Source: Gluconacetobacter johannae
Lineage (GTDB): Bacteria; Pseudomonadota; Alphaproteobacteria; Acetobacterales; Acetobacteraceae
Assembly (NCBI RefSeq): GCF_014174305.1
Contig: NZ_JABEQH010000003.1
Location: forward strand, 1 to 64,000
Direction of reading: 5' to 3'
DNA: 64,000 nucleotides
Position 1 is the first letter of the stretch, and each line of letters begins with the position of its first letter. The translations under genes were made by a program, and so were the position numbers. Below the pieces are notes generated by a model. It was not told the DNA's origin and searched no databases. It saw only the letters and a list, made by a program, of their open reading frames with translations. Of the stretch, positions 27,027 through 53,667 are shown piece after piece.

Positions 27027-28867
27027 CCTGCCGCCTTCGGGCCTTTCCTTCGCCAGGTCCGCAGGGCGCCGTCCAGGCGGGTCCAGGCCTCTTCGGTGCC
27101 CGGCAAGCCAAGGCGCAGGGCGTCCGGTTGCGTGTCGAATATACGGGTGACGATCCCGTGACGGCACAGATGGGCCCAGAGATCCGGCGCACCGTCTGTC
27201 CGGACCAGGGTGAACAGGCGTGCCTGCCCCACGTGGCGCAGTCCCGCCCCGTCCAGAAGCCGGGCAAGGCGGTCATGCGCGCGGGACGCCGTCAGGCGGG
27301 CATGTTCCAGCCACTGCCGGTCCCGCAGGGCCTGACGGCCGGCGGCAAGGGCCAGGCTGCCGACGGGCCAGGCGCCGATCAGGTTGCGCGCCCGTTCCGC
27401 CGTTTCCGGGGAGGCCAGGAGAAATCCCAGCCGTACCCCCGGCAGGCCATAGGTCTTGCCGAACGAACGCAGGACGATCAGGCCCGGGTGCGGCAGGGCC
27501 GGTATCAGGCTTTCTCCATCGAAATCGGCAAAAGCCTCGTCCACGACAAGATGATTTCCGTGTGACGCGCACCGGTCGGCAAGGTCCCGCAGCATCGTCG
27601 CCGGCAGGATGCGCCCGTCGGGGTTGTTGGGATTGCACACGATACAGACCGTGCCGGGTTGCGCCGACTGGCGCATGAGGCCGTCAGGGTCGAAGACCTC
27701 GCGCACCGCCGCCCCCGCTTGCCGCCAGGCGGTGGCGTGCCCGGAATAGGTCGGCCCCAGGATGCAGGCGGCCGATGCGCTTATGACGCGGGGCAGCAGG
27801 GACATCAGGCTCTGGCTGCCGGGGCCGGCCGCGACCATGGCGGGGTCGGCGGCGCCGTAGGCCGCCGCCGCCGCCGCGCGCAGATCGTCTTCCTCGTCCG
27901 CTTCGGGTAGGCGGGCCAGGACCTGGGGCGCGGGCATGTCCAGCGGATAGCTGTCCGGATTGATGCCTGTCGACAGGTCGATGAACGGGCGGGGCGCGTC
28001 GGGAAAATGGCGCATGATCGCCCGCACCTGTCCGCCGTGCGCGGGAAAGGACGCGCCGGCCGCACCCTCTGCCGACCCGTCCGGTTGCCCGTCGCCTGTG
28101 CTTCGCCGGAGCAGGTAGATGTCCATGATCCAGCCATGGCGTGCGCGGGCCTCGGCCCGGGCGGCGATAATCCGCGGCCCGGTCTGCGCGAGGGGGCCGG
28201 AGAGCAGGATCTGCTGGGCCATGCCGACGTAGGCGCCCCAGTGGATGGTGACGTCGTCCGCCGCGATGTGCTGGAACGAACAGTCGCCATCCAGCATCAC
28301 CGCCACGGTATCGGCCCCCTGCGGCCAGCCGTGATCGCGGAGTTGGCGCCCGGTGGTGACCAGAAACGGTGCGCCGATGTCGTTGAGCGCGATGGCGTGG
28401 GCCGCCGCCAGCATGTTCAGCGACATGATGCCGGGAATGCTGCGTACCGCAGGCGCCGGGGTCAGCCGGGCGGCGATCCGCAGGGTGCTGTCGTACAGGG
28501 CCGGGTCGCCCCAGACGAGCAGCGCGACCGTGCCGCCGCCCGCAGCGTCCTGGTCCTGGTCCTGGGGCAGGTTCGAGCGGATGGCTTCGGTCCACACGCC
28601 GGCGATGGCGTCGTGCCAGTGCGCGACGCCCCGGCGGTAGTCGGGGTCGGCGGCGTTGCGGCGCGGCATGTCGAATTCGGCGATGCGGGTGGCCGGGTTG
28701 GTCAGCACCTGCGTGCAGATGGCGCGGCGCAGTTCGGCCAGGTCGGCCGTGTCGCGGCCCTTGCGCGGGATGAGGATGAGGTCGGCGGCGTTGAGTTCGC
28801 GAATGGCCTGCAGGGTCAGATGTTCGGGATTTCCCGTGCCGATGCCGACAAGAACCAGGTCGATCAT
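27023..28867 (-). CDS. cobFC: Fusion of CobF (precorrin-6A synthase) and CobC (threonine-phosphate decarboxylase-like)
   Basis: A 614-residue two-domain protein. Residues 1-255 are a SAM methyltransferase of the CobF type (VGIGTGNPEHLT, SIPGIMSLNMLAA), which methylates C1 and releases acetate to give precorrin-6A. After a Gly/Ala/Ser-rich linker (256-277), residues 278-614 are a class I PLP enzyme of the CobC/CobD kind: NPNNPDG, VVDEAFADF, Schiff-base K471 in SFGKTYGLPGVRLGF. CobC makes aminopropanol phosphate for the nucleotide loop. The frame is continuous with no internal stop. Coupled to cobB and the phosphatase-like gene by ATGA overlaps. Confidence 0.88.
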   Translation of the reverse strand: MIDLVLVGIGTGNPEHLTLQAIRELNAADLILIPRKGRDTADLAELRRAICTQVLTNPATRIAEFDMPRRNAADPDYRRGVAHWHDAIAGVWTEAIRSNLPQDQDQDAAGGGTVALLVWGDPALYDSTLRIAARLTPAPAVRSIPGIMSLNMLAAAHAIALNDIGAPFLVTTGRQLRDHGWPQGADTVAVMLDGDCSFQHIAADDVTIHWGAYVGMAQQILLSGPLAQTGPRIIAARAEARARHGWIMDIYLLRRSTGDGQPDGSAEGAAGASFPAHGGQVRAIMRHFPDAPRPFIDLSTGINPDSYPLDMPAPQVLARLPEADEEDDLRAAAAAAYGAADPAMVAAGPGSQSLMSLLPRVISASAACILGPTYSGHATAWRQAGAAVREVFDPDGLMRQSAQPGTVCIVCNPNNPDGRILPATMLRDLADRCASHGNHLVVDEAFADFDGESLIPALPHPGLIVLRSFGKTYGLPGVRLGFLLASPETAERARNLIGAWPVGSLALAAGRQALRDRQWLEHARLTASRAHDRLARLLDGAGLRHVGQARLFTLVRTDGAPDLWAHLCRHGIVTRIFDTQPDALRLGLPGTEEAWTRLDGALRTWRRKGPKAAG

Positions 28868-30195
28868 GCGTGGCTCCCGTCGGGTTGGTCGGCCGGCGCG
28901 ATCAGGTGGAAGAAGGTGCCGGTGGCCAATCCGCGCCGGGACCCGGCCTCGGGCACCTCGGCGCCGTTGGCGTCGACGGTCCGCGCCAGCGCGTCGTCCG
29001 GCTGGCTGGCGATGGTGGCATAGTGGAACTCGTGCCCGCGCAGCCGCCTGCCCGCATCATGGCCGGGGATGGGCGCGAGCAGCGTCGCCAGCCGGTAGCC
29101 CAGATGCATCCGCCGTCTGGCGAATGAGGTTTCCAGGCCCAGCAGGCCCGCCATCTCGTGCCGCGTGCCCTGCGCGTCGACCAGCCCCGCGCCCATCGCC
29201 ATGTAGCCGCCGCATTCGCCATGCACCGGCCGGCTCATGGCAAAGCGTCGCAGCCCGTCGCGGAAACGGGTGGCGGCGGCCAGTGTGCCGGCATGGAGTT
29301 CGGGATAGCCGCCGGGGAGCCAGCAGGCGTCGGCGTCCGGGTCGGGCGCTTCGTCGGCGAGCGGCGAGAAGGGCACGATTTCCGCCCCTGCCGTGCGCCA
29401 TCCCTCGATCAGATGCGGGTAAACGAAGGAAAAGGCCGCATCGCGGGCCAGCGCCACGCGATTGCCGGGCGGCGCTACCGCAACCGGCCGGCCGCTTGTG
29501 CCGAAGGCGCCGCCCGCCAGCGTCAGAATGTGATCCAGATCGACATGCGCGGCGATGAATGCGCCAAGCTCGCCCAGCAGCGCGGCAAGGTGCGGCTGCT
29601 CCTCGGCCTGCACCAGGCCGAGGTGCCGCGCGGGCAGGGCCACGGCCTCGCGCCGGGGCAGGGCGCCCAGCACGCGCAGCCCGGCGGCCGCCATGCCGGC
29701 GCGGACCAGCGCCTCGTGGCGCGGGCTGGCGACCCGGTTGAGGATCACCCCCGCCAGCCTCACCTGGGGCGACAGCGTCGCGAAGCCATGAGCGATGGCG
29801 GCGGCGGACTGGGCCTGGCCGGACACATCCAGCACCAGCACGACGGGCCAGCCGGTCAGCGCCGCCAGGTCGGAACTGGCGCCATTGCCCGTTTCGCCCG
29901 CCGATGCCACGCCATCGAACAGGCCCATCGAGCCTTCGGCGATCATCAACTCGGCGTCCGCGCGGGCGCCGACCAGCCCCGCGATCCGCTCGGCCGACAT
30001 GGCCCAGGTGTCGAGGTTGACCGAGGCGCGCCCCGATGCGGCGCTATGGAACGCCGGGTCGATATAGTCCGGCCCGTTCTTGAAGGGCTGCACCGCCTGG
30101 CCGCGCGCCCGCAGGGCGGCAAGCAGCCCCAGCGTGACCATGGTCTTGCCCGCGCCCGAGGCGGGGGCGGAGATGATGAGGCCAGGGGTGCTCAT
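28864..30195 (-). CDS. cobB: Hydrogenobyrinic/cobyrinic acid a,c-diamide synthase
   Basis: A 443-residue glutamine-dependent amidotransferase. The P-loop is in [10 protein letters not shown] (9-18), followed by [13 protein letters not shown]. The C-terminal class I GATase domain holds the cysteine in [11 protein letters not shown]. It amidates the a and c side chains with ATP and glutamine before cobalt insertion in the aerobic pathway. Start and stop overlap cobM and cobFC by 4 bp, so translation is chained. Confidence 0.93.
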
Positions 30196-30974
30196 TCCGC
30201 CTCTGGAAAGCGGGGGGCGGTGCCGACGGGGCGGAACCGGCGGTCATAATCGCCGGCATAGAGGCGGCTTTCGCCGAAGTCCGTGGCCCCGATCGCGCGG
30301 CCGACCAGGATCAGCGCCGTGCGTTCCAGTTCGGTGGCCAGCGCGGCTTCCAGCGTGTCCAGCGTGGCCTGGACGATGCGCTGGTCCGGCCAGCTTGCGC
30401 GCCACACCACGGCGACCGGACAGTCGCCACCGTAATGCGGGGTCAGTTCGGCCATGACGCGGTCCAGCACATGGATCGACAGATGGATCGCCAGCGTGGC
30501 GCCCGTGGCGGCGAAGGCGGCAAGGGTCTCGCCCGGCGGCATGGAGGTGGCGCGGCCGGAGGTGCGTGTCAGCACCACCGACTGGGCAACGCCCGGCAGG
30601 GTCAGTTCGGCGCCCAGCGCGGCGGCGGCGGCGGCGAAGGACGGCACGCCGGGCGTCACGTCATACGCAATGCCCAGCGCGCGCAGGCGGCGCAGTTGTT
30701 CGCCCATGGCGGACCACACCGACAGGTCGCCGGAATGCAGGCGGGCGACATCATGACCCGCTTCCTGTGCCGCCACCATTTCGGCGATGATGGCGTCGAG
30801 CGAGAGCGGCGCGGTGTTGACGATGCGCGCGCCGGGTGGGCAATGGTCGAGCAGCGCCGCCGGAACCAGCGATCCGGCATAGAGGCATACGGGGCTTGCC
30901 GCGATCAGGTCCCGCCCGCGCAGGGTGATGAGATCGGGCGCGCCCGGTCCGGCGCCGATGAAGTGAATCGTCAT
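30192..30974 (-). CDS. cobM: Precorrin-4 C11-methyltransferase
   Basis: A 260-residue tetrapyrrole methylase. It opens with [14 protein letters not shown], has SGDLSVWSA (about 81-89) and the CobM/CbiF-typical [23 protein letters not shown] and [17 protein letters not shown]-dependent methylation at C11 gives precorrin-5. It overlaps cobE and cobB by ATGA. Confidence 0.94.
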
Positions 30975-31348
30975 GCGTTGTTCCCCTCGGCTTTCTCGGC
31001 AATGGCGGCCATTGCCATCCCGTCGGCCGAGGCCGCGCGGGGGGCGAGCAGGCGCGCGCCTGCTCCGGCGGCGGCCAGCGCGGCCGCTTCGGCGATGCTG
31101 CCGGTCCCGAAACCCGCCATGACGCGGCTGGACCGGGTTGGTGTGGCGACATGCGCCAGCGTTTCGGCCGCCAGCGCGCGGATGGGCAGGCCCAGTTCCG
31201 CCGCCAGCGCCAGAAGCGGGGGCGAACCGGCCTTTTGCGCGACCGTGGCCAGGGCGTCGATGCCCCTGGCGCCCCCCGCCGCCGCCAGCGCATCGCGCAG
31301 CGACGCCAGGCTGGCGGCCTGCCGGAAGCCGAAGCCCGCGACCCTCAT
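30971..31348 (-). CDS. cobE: CobE / CbiG C-terminal-domain cobalamin biosynthesis protein
   Basis: A 125-residue protein matching the stand-alone CbiG C-terminal domain: [49 protein letters not shown]. The ATG at 31348 overlaps the cobL stop; the longer frame to 31783 is cobL shadow. CobE is needed in some aerobic pathways, possibly as a helper at the ring-contraction stage, but its biochemical role is not settled. Confidence 0.85.
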
Positions 31349-32538
31349 CGCGTCACGCTCCATTGCACGACGGGGCGCGCCGGGCGCCATCCGCGCATCG
31401 ACCCCAGAGGTGCGGCGGTTGCCAGCTCGATACGCAGCAATTCGCCGCCCTTTTGGCCGTGCCATGCGGCCAGCAGCGTCTCGGTCTCCAGCGTGACGCC
31501 GTTGGCGACGATCCGCGTTCCGGGCGGCAGCAGGGCCCACAGGTGATCGAGCAGGGCGGCATGGGCGCCACCGCCGATGAACACGGCATCGGGCGGGGGC
31601 AGGCCCGCCAGCGCCGCCGGGGCCTCGCCTTCCACGATCCGGAGCAGGTGGTCCAGGCCAAGGGCCTGGGCATTGGCGCGGATGGTCGCGGCGCGGTCGG
31701 CGCGGGTTTCGACCGCGACGGCCCGCCCGCCGGCCAGGCACCATTCCGCCGAAATCGACCCCGATCCCGCGCCGAGATCCCACAGACGTTCGCCGGGGCG
31801 CGGCGCGAGGGCCGACAGGGTGAGCGCGCGGACCGGGCGCTTGGTGATCTGCCCGTCATGGATGAACGTCTCGTCAGGCAGGCCCGACGCCCGGCCAAGC
31901 CCCGGCGCGCCGGACATGGCGATGGCCACGGCAACCGGCGCGGCGACGTCGGTGAAGGCAAAATCGGCCGCGCCGACGGTGCGGATGCGCTCGCGCGGGC
32001 CGCCCAGGGCCTCCATGACGTGGAGGGCGGAGGCGCCGAACCCCCGGCCGACCAGCCACCGCGCCAGCGCGCCGGCGGCGGGGCCGTCGCGCAGCAGGCA
32101 GATCGCCCGCCCCTGCGCGCTCAGCGAAGGCGTCAGCCGTTCGAACGGCGCCGCGTGCAGCCCCAGGCAGGACACCTGTTCAAGCCGCCAGCCCAGCCGG
32201 CTGGCCGCCAGCGAAAAGGTGGATGGCGCCGGGTGGGCCAGCCACTCGCCCGGTTCAAGCCGGGCGGCAAGGGTGGCGCCCGCGCCGAACCAGAACGGAT
32301 CGCCCGACGCCAGAACCGCCACCCTGCGTCCGCGCTCGGCCAGGACCGGTTCGACCGAGAAGGGCACCGGCCAGGCGCGGCCCCTGTCGCCCGCGTTCAC
32401 CAACGCAAGATGGCGCGGGCCGCCAAAAATCACCTCGGCGCGGGCCAGCTCGGCATGGCGCGCCGCCGGCAAACCTGCCATGCCATCCTCACCAATGCCG
32501 ATGATCGCAAGCCAGGGGTCAGCCCAGGAGTCAGCCAT
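31345..32538 (-). CDS. cobL: Precorrin-6Y C5,15-methyltransferase (decarboxylating)
   Basis: A 397-residue bifunctional enzyme. The N-terminal CbiE-type methylase (about 8-200, [16 protein letters not shown]) is fused to a C-terminal CbiT-type domain (about 215-397, [14 protein letters not shown]). It methylates C5 and C15 and removes the C12 acetate carboxyl. The chosen ATG (MADSWADPW, 32538) shares two bases with the divergent cobK ATG; an ATG at 32568 would overlap cobK further. It begins the distal minus-strand block cobL-cobE-cobM-cobB-cobFC. Confidence 0.93.
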
Positions 32539-33301
32539 GACGCGCGTCCTCTTGCTGGGGGGCACCACCGAAGCCAGCCAGATGGCCCATGTTCTGGCCG
32601 AAGCGGGGACGGACGCCCTCTTTTCCTATGCCGGCCGGACCGCGTCGCCGGCCCGGCAGCCCCTGCCGGTCCGGGTCGGCGGGTTTGGCGGGGCGGAGGG
32701 GCTGGCGGCCTATCTGCGGGAGGCGGGGATCAGCCACGTGATCGACGCCACCCATCCCTTTGCCGTCCGGATGAGCCACAACGCGGTGGCGGCCTGCGCC
32801 GCCGCCGGCATCCCGCTGCTGGCGTTCGAGCGGGCGCCGTGGGTGCCGGCGGAGGGCGATGACTGGCGCGCGGTGGCCGATGTGGCGGGCGCGGTCGCCG
32901 CGCTGCCCGATGCGCCGGCACGGGTTTTCCTGGCGATCGGCAGGCAGTTGGTCGATGCCTTCGCGGCCTGCCCGCGGCATGACTACCTGCTGCGTCTGGT
33001 CGATCCGCCCCGCGCCGCCCTGCCGCTGCCCCGCGCGGCGGTGGTCGTGGCGCGCGGGCCGTTCACGCAGGAGGGGGACATGGCCCTGATGCAGGCGCAC
33101 GGCATCACCCATGTCGTGGCGAAGAATGCCGGCGGGGTCGGCGCGCGGGCCAAGCTGGATGCCGCGCGCATGCTGGGCCTGCCGGTGATCCTGATCGAGC
33201 GGCCCGCCACGCCGCCCCGCCCTGTCGCGCGCACGGCGGCCGAGGTGATGGCATGGCTTGGGGGTGGTTCGGAAGGTCATTCGGCGCGCCTCGGCGTGTA
33301 G
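32537..33301 (+). CDS. cobK: Precorrin-6A reductase
   Basis: A 254-residue NADPH-dependent reductase. LLLGGTTEA is at 5-13, followed by IDATHPFAVRMS (about 75-86), FLAIGRQ, and VAKNAGGVGARAKLDAA (about 195-211), all CobK/CbiJ signatures. It is the only plus-strand gene inside the minus-strand cob block: its ATG overlaps the cobL ATG within CATG (32536-32539), and its 3' end overlaps cobJ by 25 bp. The long frame upstream to 31577 is cobL antisense. Confidence 0.93.
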   Translation: MTRVLLLGGTTEASQMAHVLAEAGTDALFSYAGRTASPARQPLPVRVGGFGGAEGLAAYLREAGISHVIDATHPFAVRMSHNAVAACAAAGIPLLAFERAPWVPAEGDDWRAVADVAGAVAALPDAPARVFLAIGRQLVDAFAACPRHDYLLRLVDPPRAALPLPRAAVVVARGPFTQEGDMALMQAHGITHVVAKNAGGVGARAKLDAARMLGLPVILIERPATPPRPVARTAAEVMAWLGGGSEGHSARLGV

Positions 33302-34011
33302 ACATGCCGCCCGACGCGTCGTGTCGAGGCGTTGCCGACCAGCACCACGGTCCGCATGTCCGCCATTTCGGCGCGGGCCTCGGCCAGCGTCGTCACGCTG
33401 AGTCGTTCCTCGGGCGTCGTTACGGCGCGGGCGAAGATGATGAGCCGGTCCGGCCCGCATTCCTCGCGCAGAATCTCCAGCGCGCGGGCCAATTGATGCG
33501 GACGGCTGGCCGAGCGCGGATTGTAGAAGGCCATGGCGAAATCGGCCTGCGCCGCCAGGCGCAGCCGCCTTGCGACCGTTTCCCAGGGCTTGAGATTGTC
33601 CGACAGGTTGATCGCGCAGAAATCATGGCCCAGCGGCGCGCCGGCCCGCGCGGCGGCCGCCAGCATGGCGGTGATGCCGGGCAGGATGCGGATATCGACA
33701 TGGGCCAGGCGCGGGGCCTGTTCCACCGCCTCGAACACCGCCGAGGCCATGGCGAATACGCCCGGGTCGCCCGACGAGACGACGACGACCCTGCGCCCCG
33801 CCGCCGCCAGGTCCAGCGCGTGGGTGGCCCGCGCCAGCTCCACGCGATTGTCCGTGGCATGCAGCGTCAGCCCGTCGCGCGCCGGGATGCGCGCCACGTA
33901 GGGGATGTAGCCGACGACATCGGTCGCGTCGGCAAGGGCCGTCGCCACCTCGGGCGTGACGAGCGCCTCGTCGCCGGGACCGAGGCCGGCGACGACCAGC
34001 GTGCCGCTCAT
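33277..34011 (-). CDS. cobJ: Precorrin-3B C17-methyltransferase
   Basis: A 244-residue tetrapyrrole methylase with VAGLGPGDEALVTPE, VVVVSSGDPGVFAMA (about 77-91), ILPGITAMLAAAARAGAPLGHDFCAINLSD and FYNPRSASR, the CobJ/CbiH fingerprint. It contracts the ring and methylates C17 to give precorrin-4. The ATG at 34011 overlaps the cobI stop (ATGA). Convergent with cobK, with a 25-bp overlap. Confidence 0.94.
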   Translation of the reverse strand: MSGTLVVAGLGPGDEALVTPEVATALADATDVVGYIPYVARIPARDGLTLHATDNRVELARATHALDLAAAGRRVVVVSSGDPGVFAMASAVFEAVEQAPRLAHVDIRILPGITAMLAAAARAGAPLGHDFCAINLSDNLKPWETVARRLRLAAQADFAMAFYNPRSASRPHQLARALEILREECGPDRLIIFARAVTTPEERLSVTTLAEARAEMADMRTVVLVGNASTRRVGRHVYTPRRAE

Positions 34012-34754
34012 GCTGCGTCCCCCTGTCCGGCTTCGGGGCGGCGGCCCTGCCCGTGCACCAGCACGATCGCGAAATAGGGGCAGTCGCCGTCGCCGGCTTC
34101 GGCAAGGCGGATCACGCGCTGGCCGGGCATGGTGCCGCGCTCGACCAGCCAGGCGTCCTCCAGCCGGCCGGCGGCGGCCAGGGCGCGGCGCACCCTGGGC
34201 AGGTTCCTGCCGGTCTTCATCACGACCAGCGCGTCGGCGGCCCGCATATGCCGCGCCAGGTCGGCCTCGGGCATCGTGCCGGTCAGCACGGTGAGCACAT
34301 CGTCGCCCCAGGTGATCGGGATGCCGGTGGCGTTCCAGCAGCCGGTCATGCCGGTGATGCCGGGGATGACCTCCACCGCGACGCGCCCCTGCAGGCGGGC
34401 GTGCAGGTGCATGAACGAGCCGTAGAAGAACGGGTCGCCTTCGCACAGCACCACCACGTCCTGCGTCCGGGCCAGATCGGCCAGGCGGTTCGTCCAGTCA
34501 TCGTAAAAGCCGGCCAGCGCGTCGCGATAGGCGGGGCTGTCCACCGGCAGTTCGGTGGTCACGGGATATTCCATCGGATACTCGGTGACGCCGGGGGCCA
34601 GCATCCCCTCGACGATCCGCCGGGCCTGTCCGGCGCGCCCGGCCTTGCGAAAATAGGCCACGTGGCGGGCCGTGCGGATCAGCCGGTCGGCGCGCACGCT
34701 CATCAGTTCCGGGTCGCCGGGGCCAAGGCCGGCGCAGACGATCCTGCCGGGCAC
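34008..34754 (-). CDS. cobI: Precorrin-2 C20-methyltransferase
   Basis: A 248-residue tetrapyrrole methylase. CAGLGPGDPELMSVRA at the N-terminus, YFRKAGRAGQAR (about 34-45), CEGDPFFYGSFMHL and VIPGITGMTGCWNATGIPITWGDD identify CobI/CbiL, which makes precorrin-3A with SAM. It follows cobH by 4 bp. Confidence 0.94.
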   Translation of the reverse strand: MPGRIVCAGLGPGDPELMSVRADRLIRTARHVAYFRKAGRAGQARRIVEGMLAPGVTEYPMEYPVTTELPVDSPAYRDALAGFYDDWTNRLADLARTQDVVVLCEGDPFFYGSFMHLHARLQGRVAVEVIPGITGMTGCWNATGIPITWGDDVLTVLTGTMPEADLARHMRAADALVVMKTGRNLPRVRRALAAAGRLEDAWLVERGTMPGQRVIRLAEAGDGDCPYFAIVLVHGQGRRPEAGQGDAA

Positions 34755-34758
34755 GGGG

Positions 34759-35388
34759 CTATTCCTTCCGGCTGGCCAGCGCGTTGACCGCGGCGACCGT
34801 GATCGCCGAGCCGCCCAGCCGCCCCCTGACGACCAGCGCGGGAACCGGGAGAGCCGCCATCAGCGCATCCTTCGATTCCGCGGCGCCGACGAAGCCGACC
34901 GGGCAGCCGATGATCGCCGCCGGCCGGGGGCAGGCGGGATCTTCCAGCATGTTGAGCAGGTGGAACAGCGCGGTGGGCGCATTGCCGATGGCCACCACCG
35001 CGCCGGACAGGTGGGGACGCCACAGCTCCAGCGCCGACGCCGATCGGGTATTGCCCATCCGGCGGGCCAGATCGACGACGCAGGGGTCGTTCAGCGTGCA
35101 GATGACGGCGTTATCGGCGGGCAGGCGCGCGCGGGTGATGCCCTCGCTGACCATGCGCGCGTCGCACAGGATCGGCGCCCCGGCCTCCAGCGCGGCGCGG
35201 GCGGCGATCGCCATGCCGGGGGAAAATTCCACGTGCCGTTCGAGGCCGACCATGCCGGCCGCATGGATCATCCGTACGGCGACGATCTCCTCTTCCGGGC
35301 TGAAACGGGCCAGATCGGCTTCCGCCCGGATGGTGGCGAAGGACCGGCGGTAGATCGCCGCGCCGTCGGTTTCATAGAGGTGGGGCAT
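34759..35388 (-). CDS. cobH: Precorrin-8X methylmutase
   Basis: A 209-residue CbiC/CobH protein. IRAEADLARF, MIHAAGMVGLERHVEFS (catalytic His in the first HAAGM region), CDARMVSEGITRARLP and GCPVGFVGAAESKDAL are family blocks. It moves the C11 methyl to C12, yielding hydrogenobyrinic acid. Its 5' end overlaps cobG by 17 bp, more than the 4-bp junctions elsewhere in the block. Confidence 0.94.
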   Translation of the reverse strand: MPHLYETDGAAIYRRSFATIRAEADLARFSPEEEIVAVRMIHAAGMVGLERHVEFSPGMAIAARAALEAGAPILCDARMVSEGITRARLPADNAVICTLNDPCVVDLARRMGNTRSASALELWRPHLSGAVVAIGNAPTALFHLLNMLEDPACPRPAAIIGCPVGFVGAAESKDALMAALPVPALVVRGRLGGSAITVAAVNALASRKE

Positions 35389-36537
35389 CGGGACCTTCCG
35401 TCAGCAGTCCGGGCGTGACCAGCATCTGTTCGACCGTCAGGTGGCGCCGGATGGGCGTCGTGGCGGCCGTGCCGCCCCGGACAAGGTCGAAGCCATGCGT
35501 TTGGGCGACGAGTGTCAGCGGAGTCGGCCCAGGATGCGCGCAGCCCTTCGCGCAGCCCGAGACATGCAGCAATGCACCGGCCGGGATATGCGGCGCAAGC
35601 GCCCGCGCCAGCACCCGCGTGGGGTGCAGGGCCTGGGTGCAGCCGGGCGCGCCGGTGCAGGCGACAACCCGCAGCAGGGGATCGTCCGGCCGGGTGATGA
35701 TGTGCGCGATCTCCGGCGCGCGCGTCTGCCCTTCGAGCAGGAGCAGGCGCCACGGCGTGACGCGCAGGGGGGCCAGGTCGGCGAGGGCGGCCAGGGTGCG
35801 GGCCTGCATCTGCCCGAAGGCGACGCCGACCAGGACGCCCGCGACCGCCCTGTGGGGGGCCGGGGCCGGCGCGCCGATCGCAGGCGCGGCCTCCATTTCG
35901 GTAAAGGCGGCGGGAAGCGCCGCGCCGCCGGCCAGATGTGCGGCCATGCGCCCCTGGCCGCCGCTGGCGACGAACCAGCGGGCGAGGGCCAGCGCGGTGT
36001 GCGCCATGCCGTCCGGCGTGACCCGCGCGCCGCCGGCGGCCCCGTCGGCGCGGCAGAGCAGGGCCCCCGTGGCGTCGCGTTCGATCCGGATGTCGGCGGA
36101 TACCTCCCGCAGGACGGGGTGCGCGCCGGTGTCGAGGGCAAAGCCGAACTTGCCGGGCAGGCGGATCGTCGGGTCGTCCAGCACGGCGCTGGTCAGGCGT
36201 TCGGCCAGTTCCGCCGTGCCGTCGCCGGCCTGCCAGTAGGGGGTGACGACGATGTTGCGCCGTGCCTCGGCTTCGGGCGTGGGGTCGATCAGGCCCAGCG
36301 TTGCGAGACCCGCGACAAGCGGGGCATGGGTCTGGTCGGTGACGCCGCGGATCTGGACGTTGGCCCGCGCGGACAGGTCGATCAGCCCGTTGCCGTGACG
36401 CGCGGCCAGATGCGCGATGCCGGCGGCCTGCGCCTGGGTCAGCCGCCCGGTGGGCGGGCGGACGCGGACCAGCAGCCCGTCGCCGGAGGGCATCGGGCGC
36501 AGGGCGCCGGGGCACCAGCCCTTGACCAGCGGCGCGC

Positions 36538-36541
<4 letters not shown>
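35372..36541 (-). CDS. cobG: Precorrin-3B synthase
   Basis: A 389-residue nitrite/sulfite-reductase-like monooxygenase. GWCPGALRPM at the start and IDLSARANVQIRG (about 52-64) are ferrodoxin-like half-domain motifs. Four cysteines for a 4Fe-4S cluster are visible near the C-terminus as CTGAPGC and CAKGC. O2-dependent hydroxylation of precorrin-3A by CobG marks the aerobic pathway. The GTG start at 36541 overlaps the cobN stop (GTGA). Confidence 0.92.
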
Positions 36542-39777
<3,236 letters not shown>

Positions 39778-39782
39778 GGCGG

Positions 39783-40844
39783 TTATCCCTGCGGCGCGGC
39801 CCGGCCCGCCAGCACGGCATGGATCGCCTGGGCATCGACATGGTCGTGCTCGGCGATGACCACCAGCCGGGTCTGGCGCGGCTGCGTGCCCCAGGGGCGG
39901 TCGTACTGGGTCCGCACCCGCTCGCCCACCGCCTGCAGCAACATCCGCATCGGCTTGCCGCCGATGGCGACATAGCCCTTCACGCGCAGGATATGCTGCT
40001 CGCGGGCGAGGGTGCGGACGGCCTCGGCCAGCGCTTCGGGGTCGGCGATTTCCGGCAGGTCGATGACGACGCTGTCGAAATCCTCGTGCTCATGGTCATC
40101 GTGACCGTCGTGGTGCGACGGGCGGGCGGCGAGGTCGTCTTCCGCCGCGGCCCCCACGCCGAGGATGAGCTGCGGGTCGATCAGGCCGTCGCGCATCGGC
40201 AGGATCGGCAGCGGGCGGGGCGCGATCTCGGCGATCGCCGCGCGCGCGCGGTCGAGGCATGCTGCGTCCACCAGGTCGGCCTTGGACAGCAGCACGATGT
40301 CGGCGCAGGAAAGCTGGTCCTCGAACACCTTGGCCAGCGGGGTGTCGTGATCCAGGCTGTCATCCGCCAGGCGCTGCGCGTCCACGGCCGCCGGATCGGG
40401 GGCGAAGCGGCCCTCGGCCACCGCTTCGGCGTCGGCCAGGGTGATGACGCCGTCCACCGTGATGCGCGAACGGATGCTCGGCCAGTCAAAGGCCTTGAGC
40501 AGCGGTTTGGGCAGCGCCAGGCCGGAGGTTTCGATGAGGATGTGGTCGGGCCGCTGCGGCAGGGCCATCAGCCGTTCGACCGTGGGGATGAAATCGTCGG
40601 CCACGGTGCAGCAGATGCAGCCATTGGCCAGTTCGAGGATGTTCTCCGCCGGGCAGTTCTCGTCGGCGCAGGATTTGAGGATGTCGCCGTCCACGCCCAG
40701 CGTGCCGAATTCATTGACCAGCACAGCCAGACGTCGCCCCTGCGGGTTGGCCATCAGGTGACGGATGAGCGTCGTCTTGCCGGCGCCGAGGAAACCGGTG
40801 ATGATGGTGACGGGAATTTTCGCGAGGTCGGTCCGGACGGTCAT
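39783..40844 (-). CDS. cobW: CobW family metal-chaperone GTPase
   Basis: A 353-residue G3E GTPase. Walker A GFLGAGKTT is at 17-25, the metal-binding GCICC at 75-79, a histidine/aspartate-rich linker HHDGHDDHEHED (about 246-257) and a CobW C-terminal domain. It is thought to deliver cobalt to CobN in a GTP-gated way. The ATG at 40844 lies 1 bp from the DUF1636 stop; the longer frame to 41000 is DUF1636 shadow. Confidence 0.92.
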   Translation of the reverse strand: MTVRTDLAKIPVTIITGFLGAGKTTLIRHLMANPQGRRLAVLVNEFGTLGVDGDILKSCADENCPAENILELANGCICCTVADDFIPTVERLMALPQRPDHILIETSGLALPKPLLKAFDWPSIRSRITVDGVITLADAEAVAEGRFAPDPAAVDAQRLADDSLDHDTPLAKVFEDQLSCADIVLLSKADLVDAACLDRARAAIAEIAPRPLPILPMRDGLIDPQLILGVGAAAEDDLAARPSHHDGHDDHEHEDFDSVVIDLPEIADPEALAEAVRTLAREQHILRVKGYVAIGGKPMRMLLQAVGERVRTQYDRPWGTQPRQTRLVVIAEHDHVDAQAIHAVLAGRAAPQG

Positions 40845-40845
40845 T

Positions 40846-41202
40846 TCAGCGCTCCTGCGGGGGGATGCGGGCAAGGCTCTGCTTGCGGAAAATCTGCGGG
40901 CGCTCGCGCCAGGGCACCAGGCCGTCGGGGGTGGCGGCATAGGCTGCGGCGCCGGCCAGGATATCGGGCACGTCCCCTTCGCCGAGACGGCCATAGACAT
41001 AGCTCCAGCAGCCGGGCGCGCTCAGCGCCACCGCGCAGCCGTTGGTGCAGGCCGACAGGCATTCCACCGGCGTGATGGTGAGGCCTTCGGGCGCGGGTTC
41101 GGCTGCCAGTGCGGCGTACAGGCGGGCGCCCGGCACGGGTTGTCCGTCCACGGCCGGTTCACCCGCGCGGCAGGTCGTACAGACGAAGAGTGTCGCGTTC
41201 AT
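40846..41202 (-). CDS. DUF1636 thioredoxin-like 2Fe-2S type protein
   Basis: A 118-residue protein with two cysteine pairs placed like a thioredoxin-fold ferredoxin: CTTC near residue 8-11, and C-L-S-A-C-T-N-G-C at about 48-56. DUF1636 proteins commonly sit beside cobW or cobN; a role in metal or electron handling is inferred, not shown. The ATG at 41202 (MNATLFVC) is used because upstream sequence is riboswitch leader. First gene of the large B12-regulated block. Confidence 0.8.
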   Translation of the reverse strand: MNATLFVCTTCRAGEPAVDGQPVPGARLYAALAAEPAPEGLTITPVECLSACTNGCAVALSAPGCWSYVYGRLGEGDVPDILAGAAAYAATPDGLVPWRERPQIFRKQSLARIPPQER

Positions 41203-41317
41203 GTCCCCAGCCCTGTTTCGCAACCGGGGCGCCCGCGGCCGACCCCGTGCCGCGACCGGGCAACGGGGAGCGTCCAGCCGGTTGCAGCACACCCCGGCTG
41301 CCCGTTGTATCGTCTGC

Positions 41318-41482
41318 TGGCAGGTCTCCCGGCTCGCGGATCCAGGGTTTCCCCAGCGATCGCCCACCCTTCCCGACGATGCGTCAGTGGCATTGGGCGA
41401 TCTTTCCGGTAACGGTCGCGGGGGCGGCTGTGCCTGGGTCGGCCCTTGGCAAGGCAGGCCCTGTCACATTCCCTCTTAGCCT
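41318..41482 (-). promoter_or_regulatory. Cobalamin riboswitch upstream of the DUF1636-cobW-cobN block
   Basis: Read minus: GAGGGAATGTGAC (41475-41463), a long variable arm, CCGCGACCG, GCCACTG (41391-41385), and the 3' B12-box-like AGCCGGGAGACCTGCC (41334-41319). It ends about 115 bp before the DUF1636 start. It should shut down the synthesis operon when adenosylcobalamin is abundant. Confidence 0.9.
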
Positions 41483-41565
41483 CTCCACAGATACGTCTAT
41501 AGAGCGGAACCAACAGACCGGCTGTTGCGGCAATGCGCCCCTTATGTCAAGCGATGGAGCCCCTC

Positions 41566-42204
41566 ATGACCCTTGCGACCGATCAGGACGGGAACAGCCT
41601 GGACGATACTGTTCGCCATGCCGGGAAAATGGCCAGGAAAAAGGCCGCGCGCGACAGGATCATGGCCTCCAAGCAGGGGGACAAGGGGCTGGTGATCGTC
41701 CATACCGGGGCGGGGAAGGGGAAATCCTCGTCCGGTTTCGGGATGATCCTGCGCTGCATCGCCCATGGCATGCCCTGCGCGGTGGTCCAGTTCATCAAGG
41801 GGGCGTGGGACACCGGGGAACGCCGGCTGATCGAGGCCAATTTTGCCGATCTGTGCCAGTTCCACGCGATGGGCGAGGGCTTTACCTGGGAAACCCAGGA
41901 CAAGGCGCGCGATATCGCCGCGGCGCGCAAGGGGTGGGAAAAGGCCAAGGAACTGATCCGCGATCCCGAGATTCGCATGGTGCTGCTGGACGAGATCAAT
42001 ATCGCGCTGCGCTACGACTATCTCGACCTCGACGAGGTGCTGGCCTTCCTGCGCGCGGAAAAGCCGCCGCTGACCCATGTCGTGCTGACCGGGCGCAACG
42101 CGAAGCCGGAACTGATCGAATATGCGGATCTGGTGACGGAGATGACGCTGGTCAAACATCCGTTCCGCGCGGGGATCAAGGCGCAGGCCGGGGTTGAATT
42201 CTAG
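41566..42204 (+). CDS. cobO: Cob(I)yrinic acid a,c-diamide adenosyltransferase
   Basis: A 212-residue CobA/CobO-family ATP:corrinoid adenosyltransferase. The P-loop [17 protein letters not shown] and [16 protein letters not shown] are diagnostic. Start ATG 41566 has GGAG 6 bp upstream; an ATG at 41554 or 41533 is possible. It attaches the 5'-deoxyadenosyl group after cobalt insertion. Divergent from the riboswitch-controlled block; no riboswitch was seen on its own strand. cobQ follows after 16 bp. Confidence 0.92.
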
Positions 42205-42220
42205 GGGCCGGAGCGGACCC

Positions 42221-43666
42221 ATGCGCGCGCTGATGATCCAGGGCACCGGCTCCAACGTCGGCAAATCGTTGCTGGTGGCGGGCCTGTGCCGGGCGGCCCT
42301 GCGGCGGGGGCTGTCGGTGGCGCCGTTCAAGCCGCAGAACATGTCGAACAACGCGGCGGTGACCGAGGACGGCGGAGAGATCGGCCGGGCGCAGGCGCTC
42401 CAGGCCCTGGCCTGCGGTCGCGCGGCCCATACCGACATGAACCCCGTTTTGCTGAAGCCGGAATCGGAAACGGGATCGCAGGTGATCGTGCAGGGGCGGC
42501 GCGTCGCCACGGCGCGGGCGCGGGAGTATGCCCGGCTCAAGCCCCGGCTGCTGGCGCCGGTGCTGGAGAGTTTCGCGCGGCTGCGGCAGGCCGCCGACAT
42601 CGTCATCGTCGAAGGCGCGGGCAGCCCGGCCGAGGTGAACCTGCGCGCCGGCGATATCGCCAACATGGGTTTCGCGCGGGCGGCGGATGTGCCCGTCATC
42701 CTGGTGGGGGATATCGACCGGGGCGGGGTGATCGCCCAGATCGTCGGGACCCGGGTGGTGCTGGACGCGGCCGATGCCGCGCAGGTGGTGGGGTTTCTGG
42801 TCAACCGTTTTCGCGGCGATCCGTCCCTGTTCGACGACGGCTATGCCCTGATCGGCCAGCGCACCGGCTGGCGGGGTTTTGGCGTGGTGCCGTATTTTGC
42901 CGATGCCGCCCGGCTGCCGGCGGAGGATGCGCTGGATCTGCGCCGGACCGCCGGGACTGGTCCATTGCGGGTGGCGGTGCCGGTCCTGTCGCGCATCGCC
43001 AATTTCGACGATCTCGACCCGCTGGCGCAGGAGCCGGCGGTCACGCTCGGCATGATCGGCGCGGGGCAGGCCATCCCCGGCGATACCGACCTGGTCATTC
43101 TGCCGGGAACCAAATCCACCCTCGCGGACCTCGCCTGGCTGCGCGCCCAGGGCTGGGATATCGACATCCATGCCCATGTGCGGCGCGGCGGCCATGTGCT
43201 GGGCATTTGCGGCGGCTATCAGATGCTGGGCCGCATCATCCGCGATCCGCTGGGGCTGGAGGGCGCGGCCGGCGATGTGCCCGGCCTGGGCCTGCTGGAC
43301 CTTGTCACGACGATGCGGCCGGACAAGCATCTCTCGCGGGTGGACGCCGTGCATGCGCCCAGCGGCGCGCCGATGACGGGCTATGAAATCCATATCGGCG
43401 AAACCACGGGCGAGGCCCGTTGCCGCCCGTTTGCCCATGTCGCGGGCGTGCCGGAAGGCGCCCTTTCCGCGAACGGGCGGATCATGGGTAGCTACCTTCA
43501 TGGCATGTTCGCCGGCGATGCGTTTCGCGGTGCGTTCCTGCGCCAGTTGGGCGCGGCGCCCTCGACGCTGGACTATGGTGCGGGGGTGGAGGCCGTCCTT
43601 GACGCGCTGGCCGACCACCTTGAAGCGCATTGCGATGTTGCCGGGCTGCTGGCGGCGGCGCGATAG
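42221..43666 (+). CDS. cobQ: Adenosylcobyric acid synthase (glutamine-hydrolysing)
   Basis: A 481-residue enzyme. The N-terminal ATPase half has [12 protein letters not shown] and [10 protein letters not shown]; the C-terminal glutaminase half has nucleophile Cys in [10 protein letters not shown] and His in SYLHGMF. It amidates the b, d, e and g side chains. The ATG at 42221 (MRALMIQG) follows GGAG; the frame also opens at 42194 inside cobO. Convergent with cobD. Confidence 0.94.
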
Positions 43667-43688
43667 GGGCGGTTAGCGTTGCGGCGCC

Positions 43689-44648
43689 TCATGGTCTCCC
43701 CGTCATCAGGACGATCAGGGCCATGATGGCGGCCAGCATCACCATTGCCCGGCGATACAAGGCCAGCCCGCGGGCAAGGTCGCCCGGCTGCGGGTCCGGT
43801 GCGTCGCCGTTGAGCCATGGTTCCTGGGCAATGCGATCGGCATAGGTGCGCGGCCCCGAGAGGCGAATGCCGAGCGCGCCGGCAAAGGCGGCTTCGGGCC
43901 AGCCGGCGTTGGGCGAGCGGTGAGAGCGGGCGTCGCGCAGCATGATCGTCAAGGCTGTCGCGGGCCGGGCCGAGGCAAGCGCGAACAGCAGCCCGGTCAG
44001 CCGCGCCGGGACAAGGTTGGCCACATCGTCGATCCGGGCCGCCGCCCAGCCGAAGGCCTCGTGACGGGGCGTGCGATGGCCGATCATCGAATCCATCGTG
44101 TTGATCGCCTTGTAGGCGGCAATGCCGGGCAGCCCCAGCAGCATTCCCCAGAATAACGGGGCGACGATGCCGTCCGAGGCGTTTTCGGCGAGGCTTTCCG
44201 CTGCCGCGCGCGCGATTCCGGCACCATCCAGCAGGGTCGGATTGCGACCGACGATCATGGATACGGCCTTGCGCGCACCGGCAAGGTCGCCGGCGGCCAG
44301 CGGCCTGGCGACGGCGGTGACATGGTCATGCAGGGAACGCGCCGCCACCAGCGGCCACGCCAGTATCGCGGTCAGGATCAACCCGGCTCGGCCTCCGGGT
44401 AGCAGCCGGGATATTGCCAGCGCCATGCCGGCCGCCAGAGCGATTACGGCCCCTGCCAGGACCACACCGGTGATGCGGCGAGAAAGGTCGCCGGCCTTTT
44501 CGCGGTTGAGGCGGCGATCGCCCGCGCCGATCAGCGCGCCTAGCCATGTCACCGGATGGCCGATGCGCGCGTACAGACCGTGCGGCCAGCCGAGTGCACC
44601 ATCCAGCATCAGCGCGATCAGCATCGCCGCCGTTGTTCCGGTCAGCAT
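43689..44648 (-). CDS. cobD: Adenosylcobinamide-phosphate synthase CobD/CbiB
   Basis: A 319-residue membrane protein with about five hydrophobic segments. P-V-x-W-L-G near residue 32, IVGRNPTLLDGAGIARAAAESLAENASDG (about 132-160) and INTMDSMIGHR are CbiB hallmarks. It couples aminopropanol phosphate (made by the CobC domain at 27023-28867) to adenosylcobyric acid. It stands alone on the minus strand, convergent with cobQ (22-bp gap). Confidence 0.93.
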   Translation of the reverse strand: MLTGTTAAMLIALMLDGALGWPHGLYARIGHPVTWLGALIGAGDRRLNREKAGDLSRRITGVVLAGAVIALAAGMALAISRLLPGGRAGLILTAILAWPLVAARSLHDHVTAVARPLAAGDLAGARKAVSMIVGRNPTLLDGAGIARAAAESLAENASDGIVAPLFWGMLLGLPGIAAYKAINTMDSMIGHRTPRHEAFGWAAARIDDVANLVPARLTGLLFALASARPATALTIMLRDARSHRSPNAGWPEAAFAGALGIRLSGPRTYADRIAQEPWLNGDAPDPQPGDLARGLALYRRAMVMLAAIMALIVLMTGRP

Positions 44649-44783
44649 GGGGTGGCTTGACGCGCGTCGGGACGCCTTTCATGCGGCGATGGGGCGTGAC
44701 CGATGATTCGCCGTTCCGTGGAGCACAGCTGCGCCAATTCGGCCTTTCTCCTCTTGTCCGTGGCGACACTTCCTGTCGCCGCG

Positions 44784-50731: not shown

Positions 50732-51814
50732 CTAATTCGACGGGGGATAGCGCCGCATCAATCGCAATTGTCCCCACCACGCGCGGCACAGAGCCGCCGC
50801 GCCGATCGGGATCCGGCCGGTGGCCCGCATGTCGGCCGCCAGTGCGAACAATGTCTTCTGCTTGGCAAAGACGCCGCGATATGCGCCCGCCAGGCTTAGC
50901 GTCGGGTCCCAGAACTGAATGGCTTCCGATCCGGCGCCGTTGACCTCGATGATCTGGAATTGTCCCTGTCGCAGGGCGTCCTCGCTGCTGAATCGCACGT
51001 CGAGGCGACCGAAATAAAAGCCGTTCATCGATCGGGCAATGGCGTCGACAATACCCTCAAGGGTGGGGGTGTTCAGCCGCATGGCGTTTTCATAGCGCCC
51101 CCCGACCCGCAGGGAGGCGGCCGTGCCGAGGATGACCATTTCACCGCTTGGCGGGACATGGTCCAGGCGGCCTGCGGGAAGAGCCGTCCTGTAGTGCGCC
51201 ATCAGGGGAAAGAGCCGTGGATCTGCGCGCATCAGTTCGGCAATGGAGCGAACCCCGTCGCCGGTGACCTGTGGCGGGTGGCGAATGGCGAGCCCGATCA
51301 GGTGGCCGTGGGTCTCGGTGGGGCCGCGCATGTAAAACAGGCCGGCTTCGAAGGGTCCGGGAACAAATTCCTGCAACAGGAAGCCGGCGCGGGATGGAAA
51401 GGCCGCGATGTATTGTGCCAGTTCACCAGCATCGTTGATCCGCCTGACGCCGTAACCGCACCAGCCAATGTCGGGCTTGGCGATCAGCGGGAAGCCCAAT
51501 GTGCCCGCGATGGCGCCCACCCGATGGACGTCCCCGGGAGAGACGAGAATGGTCCGGGCGACCCATGGCGCATATTCCGGGCCGATCCGGGCCAGGCAGG
51601 CATGTTTTGATTCTCCCGCCAGTCCTCCGGTCTCGATCGCCGGGTTGACGACCGATGGCAGTGTCAGGCTGCGGTAACGAAGTCCCAGCCACAGCCACTG
51701 CATGACGAGCGGGATGCATAATATCGGTTTCGGCAGCCGTTCTATTGCGCCGAAGCCGGGCGGACTGATGGGTTGGCGGGAACAGGCGTCCGTCGTGCTG
51801 CGTTGAGACCTCAT
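50732..51814 (-). CDS. ATP-grasp superfamily protein (carboxylate-amine ligase-like)
   Basis: A 360-residue protein with an N-terminal hydrophobic stretch (WLWLGLRYRSLTLPS, about 40-54), a GGLAGESK element, and an ATP-grasp core: LIAKPDIGWCGYGV, LLQEFVPG, RLDVRFSSED and IIEVNGAGSEAIQFWDP (E and N for Mg-ATP). Databases may label it D-Ala-D-Ala ligase, but the N-terminal half is unlike Ddl. The ATG at 51814 overlaps the divergent methyltransferase ATG in CATG. It probably forms an amide or ester bond on a product shared with its two neighbours. Confidence 0.7.
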   Translation of the reverse strand: MRSQRSTTDACSRQPISPPGFGAIERLPKPILCIPLVMQWLWLGLRYRSLTLPSVVNPAIETGGLAGESKHACLARIGPEYAPWVARTILVSPGDVHRVGAIAGTLGFPLIAKPDIGWCGYGVRRINDAGELAQYIAAFPSRAGFLLQEFVPGPFEAGLFYMRGPTETHGHLIGLAIRHPPQVTGDGVRSIAELMRADPRLFPLMAHYRTALPAGRLDHVPPSGEMVILGTAASLRVGGRYENAMRLNTPTLEGIVDAIARSMNGFYFGRLDVRFSSEDALRQGQFQIIEVNGAGSEAIQFWDPTLSLAGAYRGVFAKQKTLFALAADMRATGRIPIGAAALCRAWWGQLRLMRRYPPSN

Positions 51815-52766
51815 GATGGAACAGCCTATCTCCCGTAATTCGAATCCGGATTGGGCAATGCGACAGGTGGGGATCACGCTGTTGCGAGCGGGATACAGAT
51901 TTGTTTGTCCAACGCCCGAAACCCAGCGACGTGTGAATGCGCGGCCAGGCAATGAATGGGCTGGAAATCTCGTGGATGTTTTCGGCTGGAGCCGACCGTT
52001 CCGGCAGGATGTGCTGCCCGCGCCGCTCTTTGAACAGGCGATGGCGGCGGGCATGCTGGTCGCGGACAGTGGGGCCTGGCGCAGTCGCTTCCGGTTCTCG
52101 ACGCTGGGCGGCAACGGGTTCTTTCACTCCTCCTTTCCGACCGAGGCGGCGGACGCCGTGTTCTTCGGCCCCGACAGCTATCGGTTCGGCGCCGTGCTGA
52201 CGGCGCATCTCCGTGGTGCCCCGCCGCCCGGGCGGGCGGTCGATATCGGCTGCGGCACGGGGCTGGGCGCGATCCTGATCGCGCAGCATGACCCGGCGGC
52301 CGAAACGGTGATGGTCGATATCAATCCGGCCGCGCTGCGCCTGGCGCGCATCAACGCGGCCCTGGCCGGCGTCGACGGCATTCTGGCGCGGCAGAGCGAC
52401 CTTCTGTCGGATGTTTCGGGCGCATTCGACCTGATCGTGTCCAACCCGCCTTATCTGCCCGATCCCCGACGCCGCCTATACCGAAACGGCGGCGGCAGGC
52501 TGGGCGAGGGACTGTCATTGGCGATCGTCAGGACGGCCATGGAGCGTCTGGCGCGTGGGGGAACGTTACTCCTCTACACAGGCACCGCCATCGTTGGCGG
52601 AGACAATCCGTTCCTGCAGGGCGTCGCATCCCTGCTGGGCCGCGCGGATTTTATCTGGGAGGCCGTCGAACTCGATCCCGATGTCTTTGGCGAGGAACTG
52701 GAGGAGAGCCCCTTGTCCGTTGCGGAGCGCATTGCGGTGATCTGCCTGACGGTGACACGGAAGTAG
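51813..52766 (+). CDS. Class I SAM-dependent methyltransferase with NPPY motif
   Basis: A 317-residue protein. The N-terminal 120 residues have no recognised domain; SAM motif I VDIGCGTGLG is at 143-152, the acidic loop VDINPAA at about 168-174 and NPPY at 211-214, as in PrmC/HemK and N6-adenine methylases that methylate amide or amino nitrogen. It is not an ordinary PrmC: no prfA neighbour. ATG 51813 overlaps the divergent ATP-grasp ATG; ATG 51816 is equally possible. The diiron-like gene starts 4 bp after its stop. Confidence 0.8.
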   Translation: MMEQPISRNSNPDWAMRQVGITLLRAGYRFVCPTPETQRRVNARPGNEWAGNLVDVFGWSRPFRQDVLPAPLFEQAMAAGMLVADSGAWRSRFRFSTLGGNGFFHSSFPTEAADAVFFGPDSYRFGAVLTAHLRGAPPPGRAVDIGCGTGLGAILIAQHDPAAETVMVDINPAALRLARINAALAGVDGILARQSDLLSDVSGAFDLIVSNPPYLPDPRRRLYRNGGGRLGEGLSLAIVRTAMERLARGGTLLLYTGTAIVGGDNPFLQGVASLLGRADFIWEAVELDPDVFGEELEESPLSVAERIAVICLTVTRK

Positions 52767-52770
52767 GACG

Positions 52771-53667
52771 GTGACGGCACCGATGAACGAAAACCTGTCC
52801 GCCGATACCGTCGAGCAGACGCAACGGAGCCTCCATCTGGGTCTGGCGATGCTGAATCGCGCGCGCCTGACGCCATGTTTGCCCGAGGATGATGAGACCG
52901 CCGGACTGGACCTTCGTCGTCTGCTGGAAGATGAGGCGCGCTTTTTGCGGGCGATGCGCGCGCGGGTCGCGCCTGCCGTTGCGTTGGCGCCGGAAGACCC
53001 GGTGGCATTCGTCTCGTGGTTCGAGGGGCTGGAACGGACCGGTCCCGGTCAGGGGGACCGTCTCTTTTCCTGGCTGGCCCATGAGGCGCCGCGTGAGGCC
53101 ATGTGCTGGTTCCTCGAACAGGAAGCCGCGGGCGAGGCTGGTTTCGAGGACCTGACGGCCCTGGTGCAGGTGCGTATGCCGACGCGGCCCAAGCTCGAAC
53201 TGGCGCGGAATTACTGGGACGAGATGGGTCATGGCCGCGAACCCGGCATGCATGGGCCGATGCTGGAGCATCTGGTCCATGCCCTGGGACTGGAGCCCCG
53301 GCCGGAGACGACGGTGTGGCAATCGCTCGCCCTGGCCAACACCATGGCTGGTCTCGCATCCAACCGGCATCTGGCGTTTCACGCGATCGGCGCGCTGGGC
53401 GTGATTGAATTGACCGCGCCGGGCAGGGCGGCACTGGTCGCCGCCGGGCTGAAGCGCCTGGGCGTGGGGCCGGATGACCGGCATTATTTCGACCTGCATG
53501 CCGTCCTGGATGTCCGCCATTCCGCGACGTGGAACACGGAGATTATCGGCCCCCTGGTCGCGGAAGATCCGCGACGCGCGAAGGCGATAGCCGAGGGTGC
53601 CCTGATGCGCCTCGAATGTGGTGCTGCATGTTTTTGGCGTTATCGGGACCATTTCGGCATATATTGA
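52771..53667 (+). CDS. Haem-oxygenase-like iron-containing redox enzyme (HDO superfamily)
   Basis: A 298-residue all-helical protein resembling the iron-containing redox enzyme family (relatives include UndA, BesC and CADD). Candidate iron ligands are E118, E151 with H154 in WDEMGHG, H161, E213, and D241, H243 or H250 near YFDLHAVLDVRH. The family uses O2 at a diiron site for oxidative cleavage or desaturation. GTG start with AGGA upstream; ATG at 52783 is an alternative. Cotranscribed with the methyltransferase. Confidence 0.75.
   Translation: MTAPMNENLSADTVEQTQRSLHLGLAMLNRARLTPCLPEDDETAGLDLRRLLEDEARFLRAMRARVAPAVALAPEDPVAFVSWFEGLERTGPGQGDRLFSWLAHEAPREAMCWFLEQEAAGEAGFEDLTALVQVRMPTRPKLELARNYWDEMGHGREPGMHGPMLEHLVHALGLEPRPETTVWQSLALANTMAGLASNRHLAFHAIGALGVIELTAPGRAALVAAGLKRLGVGPDDRHYFDLHAVLDVRHSATWNTEIIGPLVAEDPRRAKAIAEGALMRLECGAACFWRYRDHFGIY

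Follow-up and report, generated by a model that had tools for sequence, protein, structure and literature searches.

A compact ATP-grasp, methyltransferase and diiron oxygenase gene trio in Gluconacetobacter johannae: a possible module for modifying arginine-type amino acids

The window considered here, i.e., the whole 64,000-nucleotide stretch of Gluconacetobacter johannae DNA that was analyzed, contains at positions 50732-53667 three intact ORFs. They encode an ATP-grasp enzyme (P0001), a SAM methyltransferase (MT, P0002), and a haem-oxygenase-like diiron oxygenase (HDO, P0003). The features of the locus are as follows:

50732..51814, minus strand: putative ATP-grasp amide ligase P0001, 360 aa, CphA/RimK-like, with conserved K113 and E290-x-N292-G-x-G-S-E motifs
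51815..51857, no strand: divergent intergenic stretch, about 40-43 bp if the MT starts at ATG 51858
51858..52766, plus strand: class I SAM methyltransferase P0002, PrmC-like with an MTS domain, 302 aa (317 aa from ATG 51813)
52443..52454, plus strand: codons of the MT NPPY motif, typical of planar-nitrogen methylation
52771..53667, plus strand: HDO P0003, 298 aa, PF14518, AF2 pLDDT 90.3, closest fold HrmI
53221..53223, plus strand: codon of HDO E151, an iron ligand predicted from alignments
53251..53253, plus strand: codon of HDO H161, likewise a predicted iron ligand
53407..53409, plus strand: codon of HDO E213, likewise a predicted iron ligand
53497..53520, plus strand: HDO H243-x3-D247-x2-H250, the iron-ligand helix predicted from alignments

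P0001 starts at ATG 51814 on the minus strand. For the MT, a start at ATG 51813 is possible and would overlap that of P0001; the RefSeq orthologue from Komagataeibacter medellinensis starts at an internal ATG equivalent to window position 51858. The MT stop (TAG, 52764-52766) and the HDO start (GTG 52771, with ATG 52783 as the alternative) are 4 bp apart, and a promoter scan of the divergent region of the trio found no sigma-70-like promoter. The immediate neighbors in the window, PPK2 and an alpha/beta hydrolase, are unremarkable. Farther away, at 27000-44700, there is a cobalamin biosynthesis cluster (cob genes, cobaltochelatase, CobW-like GTPase; names given by eye from the translations) adjoining an Lhr-like helicase. 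Nor did a short ORF for a precursor peptide stand out as accompanying the trio in the neighborhoods compared.

The HDO matches PF14518 (Haem_oxygenas_2) in Pfam with E=1e-44 and has the HO-like helical fold of this class. Its best sequence match in the PDB is HrmI (E=1.9e-24), and the fold ranking of its AF2 model is led by HrmI (TM 0.86, 2.5 A), followed by RohS and SznF, so that by sequence and model it resembles the lysine N-oxygenases HrmI and BelK. These best PDB matches are N-oxygenases without exception, and the substrates of RohS and SznF are guanidine-like nitrogens. Six residues, namely E151, H161, E213, H243, D247, and H250, show no variation in nine HDO sequences from Acetobacteraceae, in 16 sequences that include a 26 %-identity outlier, and in 20 sequences from sphingomonads and other bacteria. 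In the phmmer register with SznF, they align with six SznF ligands, while P158 stands where SznF has E222, the seventh ligand on its auxiliary helix, so that this glutamate is absent. The predicted ligand set is therefore 3H/3C, as in HrmI. Moreover, the protein ends after the HDO domain, and no C-terminal cupin was found in it, which places it outside the SznF type (3H/4C plus cupin). The ligand set alone does not reveal the chemistry of an HDO (PMC13108848). HrmI, the hormaomycin enzyme, converts the lysine side-chain amine into a nitro group (PMC13108848), and the E-x9-H spacing of our HDO recurs in Acinetobacter DtpC at residues that its activity requires (PMC13232832).

Regarding the MT, Pfam identifies an MTS domain (1e-18), and among 12 MTs compared N-P-P is invariant and the Y nearly so (F in Legionella), as is characteristic of the NPPY N-methyltransferases. 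In both NCBIfam and the PDB it matches HemK/PrmC and RsmC best, with all curated cut-offs missed by far; the score against the PrmC NCBIfam equivalog is 71.7 bits vs a cut-off of 199.1, which keeps the protein outside the PrmC/HemK glutamine methyltransferases. Antibiotic N-methyltransferases, the gentamicin N-3'' methyltransferase for example, appear among its weaker PDB matches.

P0001 has no match in Pfam. In an hhalign comparison, however, the profile of its family matches the ATP-grasp domain of cyanophycin synthetase (98.1 %, E=9.6e-14), which assigns it to the ATP-grasp superfamily, and the ATP-binding lysine (K113) and the E-x-N-G motif are retained. It is not itself a cyanophycin synthetase, as it is a single domain scoring 21.6 bits vs a cut-off of 850 for TIGR02068. 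The predicted structure is of low confidence (pLDDT 50.7) and has an N-terminal helix within a hydrophobic stretch. In the tree of the family, the trio-linked Acetobacteraceae copies cluster with those of genomes G010 and G017 (100/99), apart from VTT/DedA-adjacent paralogues, and the Variovorax and G023 proteins are sister to this group (98/92). Members of the wider P0001 family are found fused to, or beside, VTT/DedA membrane proteins (L182 and L184, from Azospirillum and Salinivibrio; L043 and L044).

The three genes belong together beyond chance, because MT and HDO were found in the same ten of 150 Acetobacteraceae genomes and all three genes occur together again in another class. In each of the ten genomes MT and HDO lie side by side, neither occurs in the remainder, and the association gives a one-sided Fisher value of 9e-16 over the 150 genomes, with shared ancestry ignored; chance adjacency is ruled out by this co-distribution. 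The other class is represented by a Variovorax plasmid (Betaproteobacteria, L141), where the gene order is different: HDO, MT, P0001-type ligase, OlsB-like acyltransferase, and LplT-like transporter (MFS). Adjacency of MT and HDO is repeated in Alpha-, Beta-, and Gammaproteobacteria. The earlier note, made from the letters of this stretch, had read the locus as a trio of these three families and had made its proposal depend on their co-occurrence in other genomes and on a plausible diiron ligand set; the trio proved real by its ORFs, family matches, and recurrence, and both the co-occurrence and an invariant 3-His/3-carboxylate set were found. A known anti-phage defense system was also considered and rejected, as PADLOC gave no match for the ATP-grasp enzyme or the HDO and only methyltransferase-type models for the MT.

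The partner that varies is the ligase. One of two unrelated ATP-grasp types is present in all ten pair-bearing genomes and in three of the other 140 (one-sided Fisher 2e-13 for either type with the pair, shared ancestry ignored). In five of the ten (G000, G042, G123, G128, G135), the P0001 type is divergent and adjoins the MT, and these genomes have at most an ordinary PurD-level match to the second type, a GARS/PurD-like ATP-grasp enzyme. The other five (G010, G017, G105, G108, G121) encode the latter elsewhere in the genome (E<=1e-90), with G010 and G017 additionally carrying an unlinked P0001 relative; the PurD-like gene is also present in two genomes that lack the MT-HDO pair. In other Alphaproteobacteria the PurD-like ligase adjoins HDO or MT-HDO, placed upstream, downstream, divergent, or convergent, and within the DNA stretches compared no MT-HDO locus has more than one type of ligase, be it P0001, PurD-like, or CphA. 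At the level of the genes, an HDO close to an ATP-grasp enzyme with putative ligase activity is the arrangement that defines HDO and ATP-grasp clusters of the mangotoxin kind. At L067, L132, L135, L174, and L188, the PurD-like ATP-grasp gene or the HDO is accompanied by a small SET-domain gene of about 140 aa.

The trio is accessory, with a close HDO in four of 14 genomes of the window's genus. One of the four, G123, has its HDO broken up across several frames (L033:7421-8303; G123:C7:106420-107302) by either decay or sequencing error, with the ATP-grasp and MT genes open. Three genomes of the same genus without the trio HDO (G919, G922, G925) carry a second HDO of more remote similarity (E about 1e-34). 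In Komagataeibacter the trio is carried on large plasmids, at least one of them typed as conjugative. A single scan covering 84,980 species genomes yielded 508 tblastn-confirmed stretches of this HDO clade at about 60 % identity. The MT is absent altogether from 13 of 24 sphingomonad genomes picked for an HDO lacking an adjacent MT, so the HDO can work without it, which weighs against a joint module. The neighbors of such lone sphingomonad HDOs vary (response regulator, SDR, and similar), and in Sphingobium-like genomes a short receiver-domain protein follows closely (L079, L085, L087, L091, L095, L105, L112, L118, L126).

The genes found around the pair in other bacteria speak for a substrate that is arginine or closely akin to it. 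On plasmid pKN1 of Sphingobium yanoikuyae (L185), cphA, an isoaspartyl peptidase, cyanophycinase, MT, HDO, and a dicarboxylate symporter form one run of mostly overlapping or closely spaced genes, and partial versions of this arrangement occur at L078/L080, L114, L164, and L168. When 14 HDO-bearing sphingomonad genomes were tested for both genes, cphA was present in five of the eight with MT vs none of the six without it (p=0.03). In Legionella sainthelensi, a domain of the arginine-deiminase/DDAH (ADI/DDAH) family is fused to a full MT (39 % identity with P0002 across 304 aa), with the HDO following after about 26 bp, and in Allosphingosinicella (L088) an ADI/DDAH-family gene lies directly downstream of the HDO. 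A cphA gene turned up neither in the window genome nor in the other nine pair-bearing Acetobacteraceae genomes, and the link to arginine is therefore drawn here through the homology of the MT-HDO pair and not through its own neighbors.

Our preferred reading, held tentatively and with a little less than even confidence, is that the three genes form a compact biosynthetic module, spread by horizontal transfer, for an arginine-type amino acid, i.e., one with a guanidino or amide nitrogen, which would undergo methylation, N-oxygenation, and amide ligation. In such a scheme, and possibly in this order, the MT would place a methyl group onto a planar side-chain nitrogen, the HDO, as a 3H/3C diiron N-oxygenase, would use O2 to oxygenate a side-chain nitrogen of the same residue, and the ATP-grasp enzyme would form an amide bond between the modified amino acid and another amino acid or carboxylate. 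The ADI/DDAH fusion suggests the arginine guanidine as the putative MT target, as with SznE. Elsewhere the role of the ligase could be taken by cyanophycin synthetase, in sphingomonads, or by the GARS/PurD-like ATP-grasp enzyme, in Roseomonas-like bacteria. The product is probably a small modified-arginine compound, not yet isolated. A wider claim, about which we are rather doubtful, is that MT-HDO constitutes a widespread and unrecognized route by which arginine, drawn in sphingomonads from the cyanophycin store, would become N-methylated and N-oxygenated and then be amide-linked by interchangeable ligases. The earlier note had imagined that the genes could make an amide or peptide-like compound, N-methylate it, and cleave or desaturate it with O2; the amide, the N-methylation, and the oxidation fit, while cleavage or desaturation loses ground, since the nearest structures to the HDO model favor N-oxygenation instead.

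The same module could nonetheless act on an arginine-type substrate with the HDO oxidizing carbon, be it to desaturate the substrate, form an acetylene, or cleave a C-C bond, in the manner of MboA, which works on arginine within a tripeptide. Mangotoxin clusters do unite an HDO, ATP-grasp ligases, and an arginine deiminase, with MboA desaturating arginine (PMC13185094), and the Legionella MT carries a fused ADI domain; however, MboA is absent from both the sequence matches of our HDO and its best structural matches, which were HrmI, RohS, and SznF, and no clear counterpart of the redox partner MboB lies beside the MT-HDO pair, so that we judge carbon oxidation unlikely. The Variovorax operon, in which the OlsB-like acyltransferase is an addition that counts against the arginine module, raises instead the prospect of an amino-acid (ornithine-type) lipid, whose head group the ATP-grasp enzyme would extend and the MT and HDO would methylate and hydroxylate. 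The LplT-like MFS protein of that operon, the predicted N-terminal helix of P0001, and the VTT/DedA association of its wider family are in line with a lipid, but this is a single locus, the OlsB-like protein scores far under the OlsB cut-offs, the ATP-grasp model is of low confidence, and other MT-HDO loci have cyanophycin or arginine genes instead. We therefore regard a lipid as improbable, and of the two substrates that the earlier note had named, an amino acid or a lipid, the former is retained and narrowed toward arginine, whereas the latter is no more than hinted at by one OlsB-like neighbor and the P0001 helix.

Two further explanations would dissolve the pathway altogether, and we hold both to be very improbable. 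The HDO might be a stress-protection protein with incidental neighbors, like Acinetobacter DtpC, an HDO-domain protein of undefined reaction that guards against desiccation-induced oxidative stress (PMC13232832). The many sphingomonads having HDO without MT agree with this, but the perfect co-distribution of the two genes in Acetobacteraceae and their repeated adjacency in three proteobacterial classes point to a joint pathway. Similarly, the resemblance of the MT to HemK/PrmC and RsmC could make it a protein or RNA methyltransferase with no role in a metabolic pathway, a view that accords poorly with the widely missed cut-offs, with a distribution that tracks the HDO and not the translation machinery, and with the fusion to an ADI-family domain.

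About a dozen of more than 10,000 HDOs have a known reaction (PMC13108848). The HDO clade described here is conserved, has a constant MT partner in Acetobacteraceae, three interchangeable types of ligase, and a candidate substrate suggested by its context, and direct deorphanization is therefore possible. HDOs near ATP-grasp genes have been mined before, with 1447 of them and at least 25 cluster types (PMC13185094), and the trio cluster may be among these types, unnamed. With that reservation, the MT-HDO pair, the exchange of its ligases, and its place in cyanophycin operons were not described in the literature searched. If the link to cyanophycin is true, these genomes use the arginine of the polymer beyond mere recycling, and if the wider route exists as well, a nitrogen storage polymer would be linked to reactive-nitrogen metabolites (N-hydroxy, nitroso, nitro) outside the natural-product clusters of actinomycetes.

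Among the known systems, HrmI and BelK, the lysine N-oxygenases of hormaomycin and belactosin, offer the closest solved sequence and fold, a 3H/3C set, and N-oxygenation of an amino-acid side chain, although our HDO is about 25 % identical to them. They come from natural-product clusters that are not known to contain such a methyltransferase and ligase set. A methyltransferase together with an HDO, as in the trio, is found in streptozotocin biosynthesis, where SznE methylates the guanidino group of arginine and the HDO SznF then acts on the same guanidine (PMC11705231); SznF, however, combines a 3H/4C set with a C-terminal cupin responsible for N-N bond formation (PMC13108848), whereas both the seventh ligand and the cupin are missing from our HDO. 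In the mangotoxin cluster, mboABCDEF, an HDO, ATP-grasp amino-acid ligases, and an arginine-deiminase enzyme act on an arginine tripeptide with oxidation of carbon (PMC13185094), a likeness in enzymes and substrate set against the lack of MboA among the sequence relatives of our HDO, of an obvious MboB in our clusters, and of any mention of a methyltransferase in PMC13185094. Finally, a survey of cyanophycin genes (PMC10206079) does not mention such an MT or HDO in cyanophycin clusters, and P0001 differs from CphA1 in having neither the Mur-ligase nor the N-terminal CphA domain, with no cphA in the trio-bearing Acetobacteraceae; yet P0001 aligns to the ATP-grasp domain of CphA1, and in sphingomonads the MT-HDO pair lies inside cphA operons.
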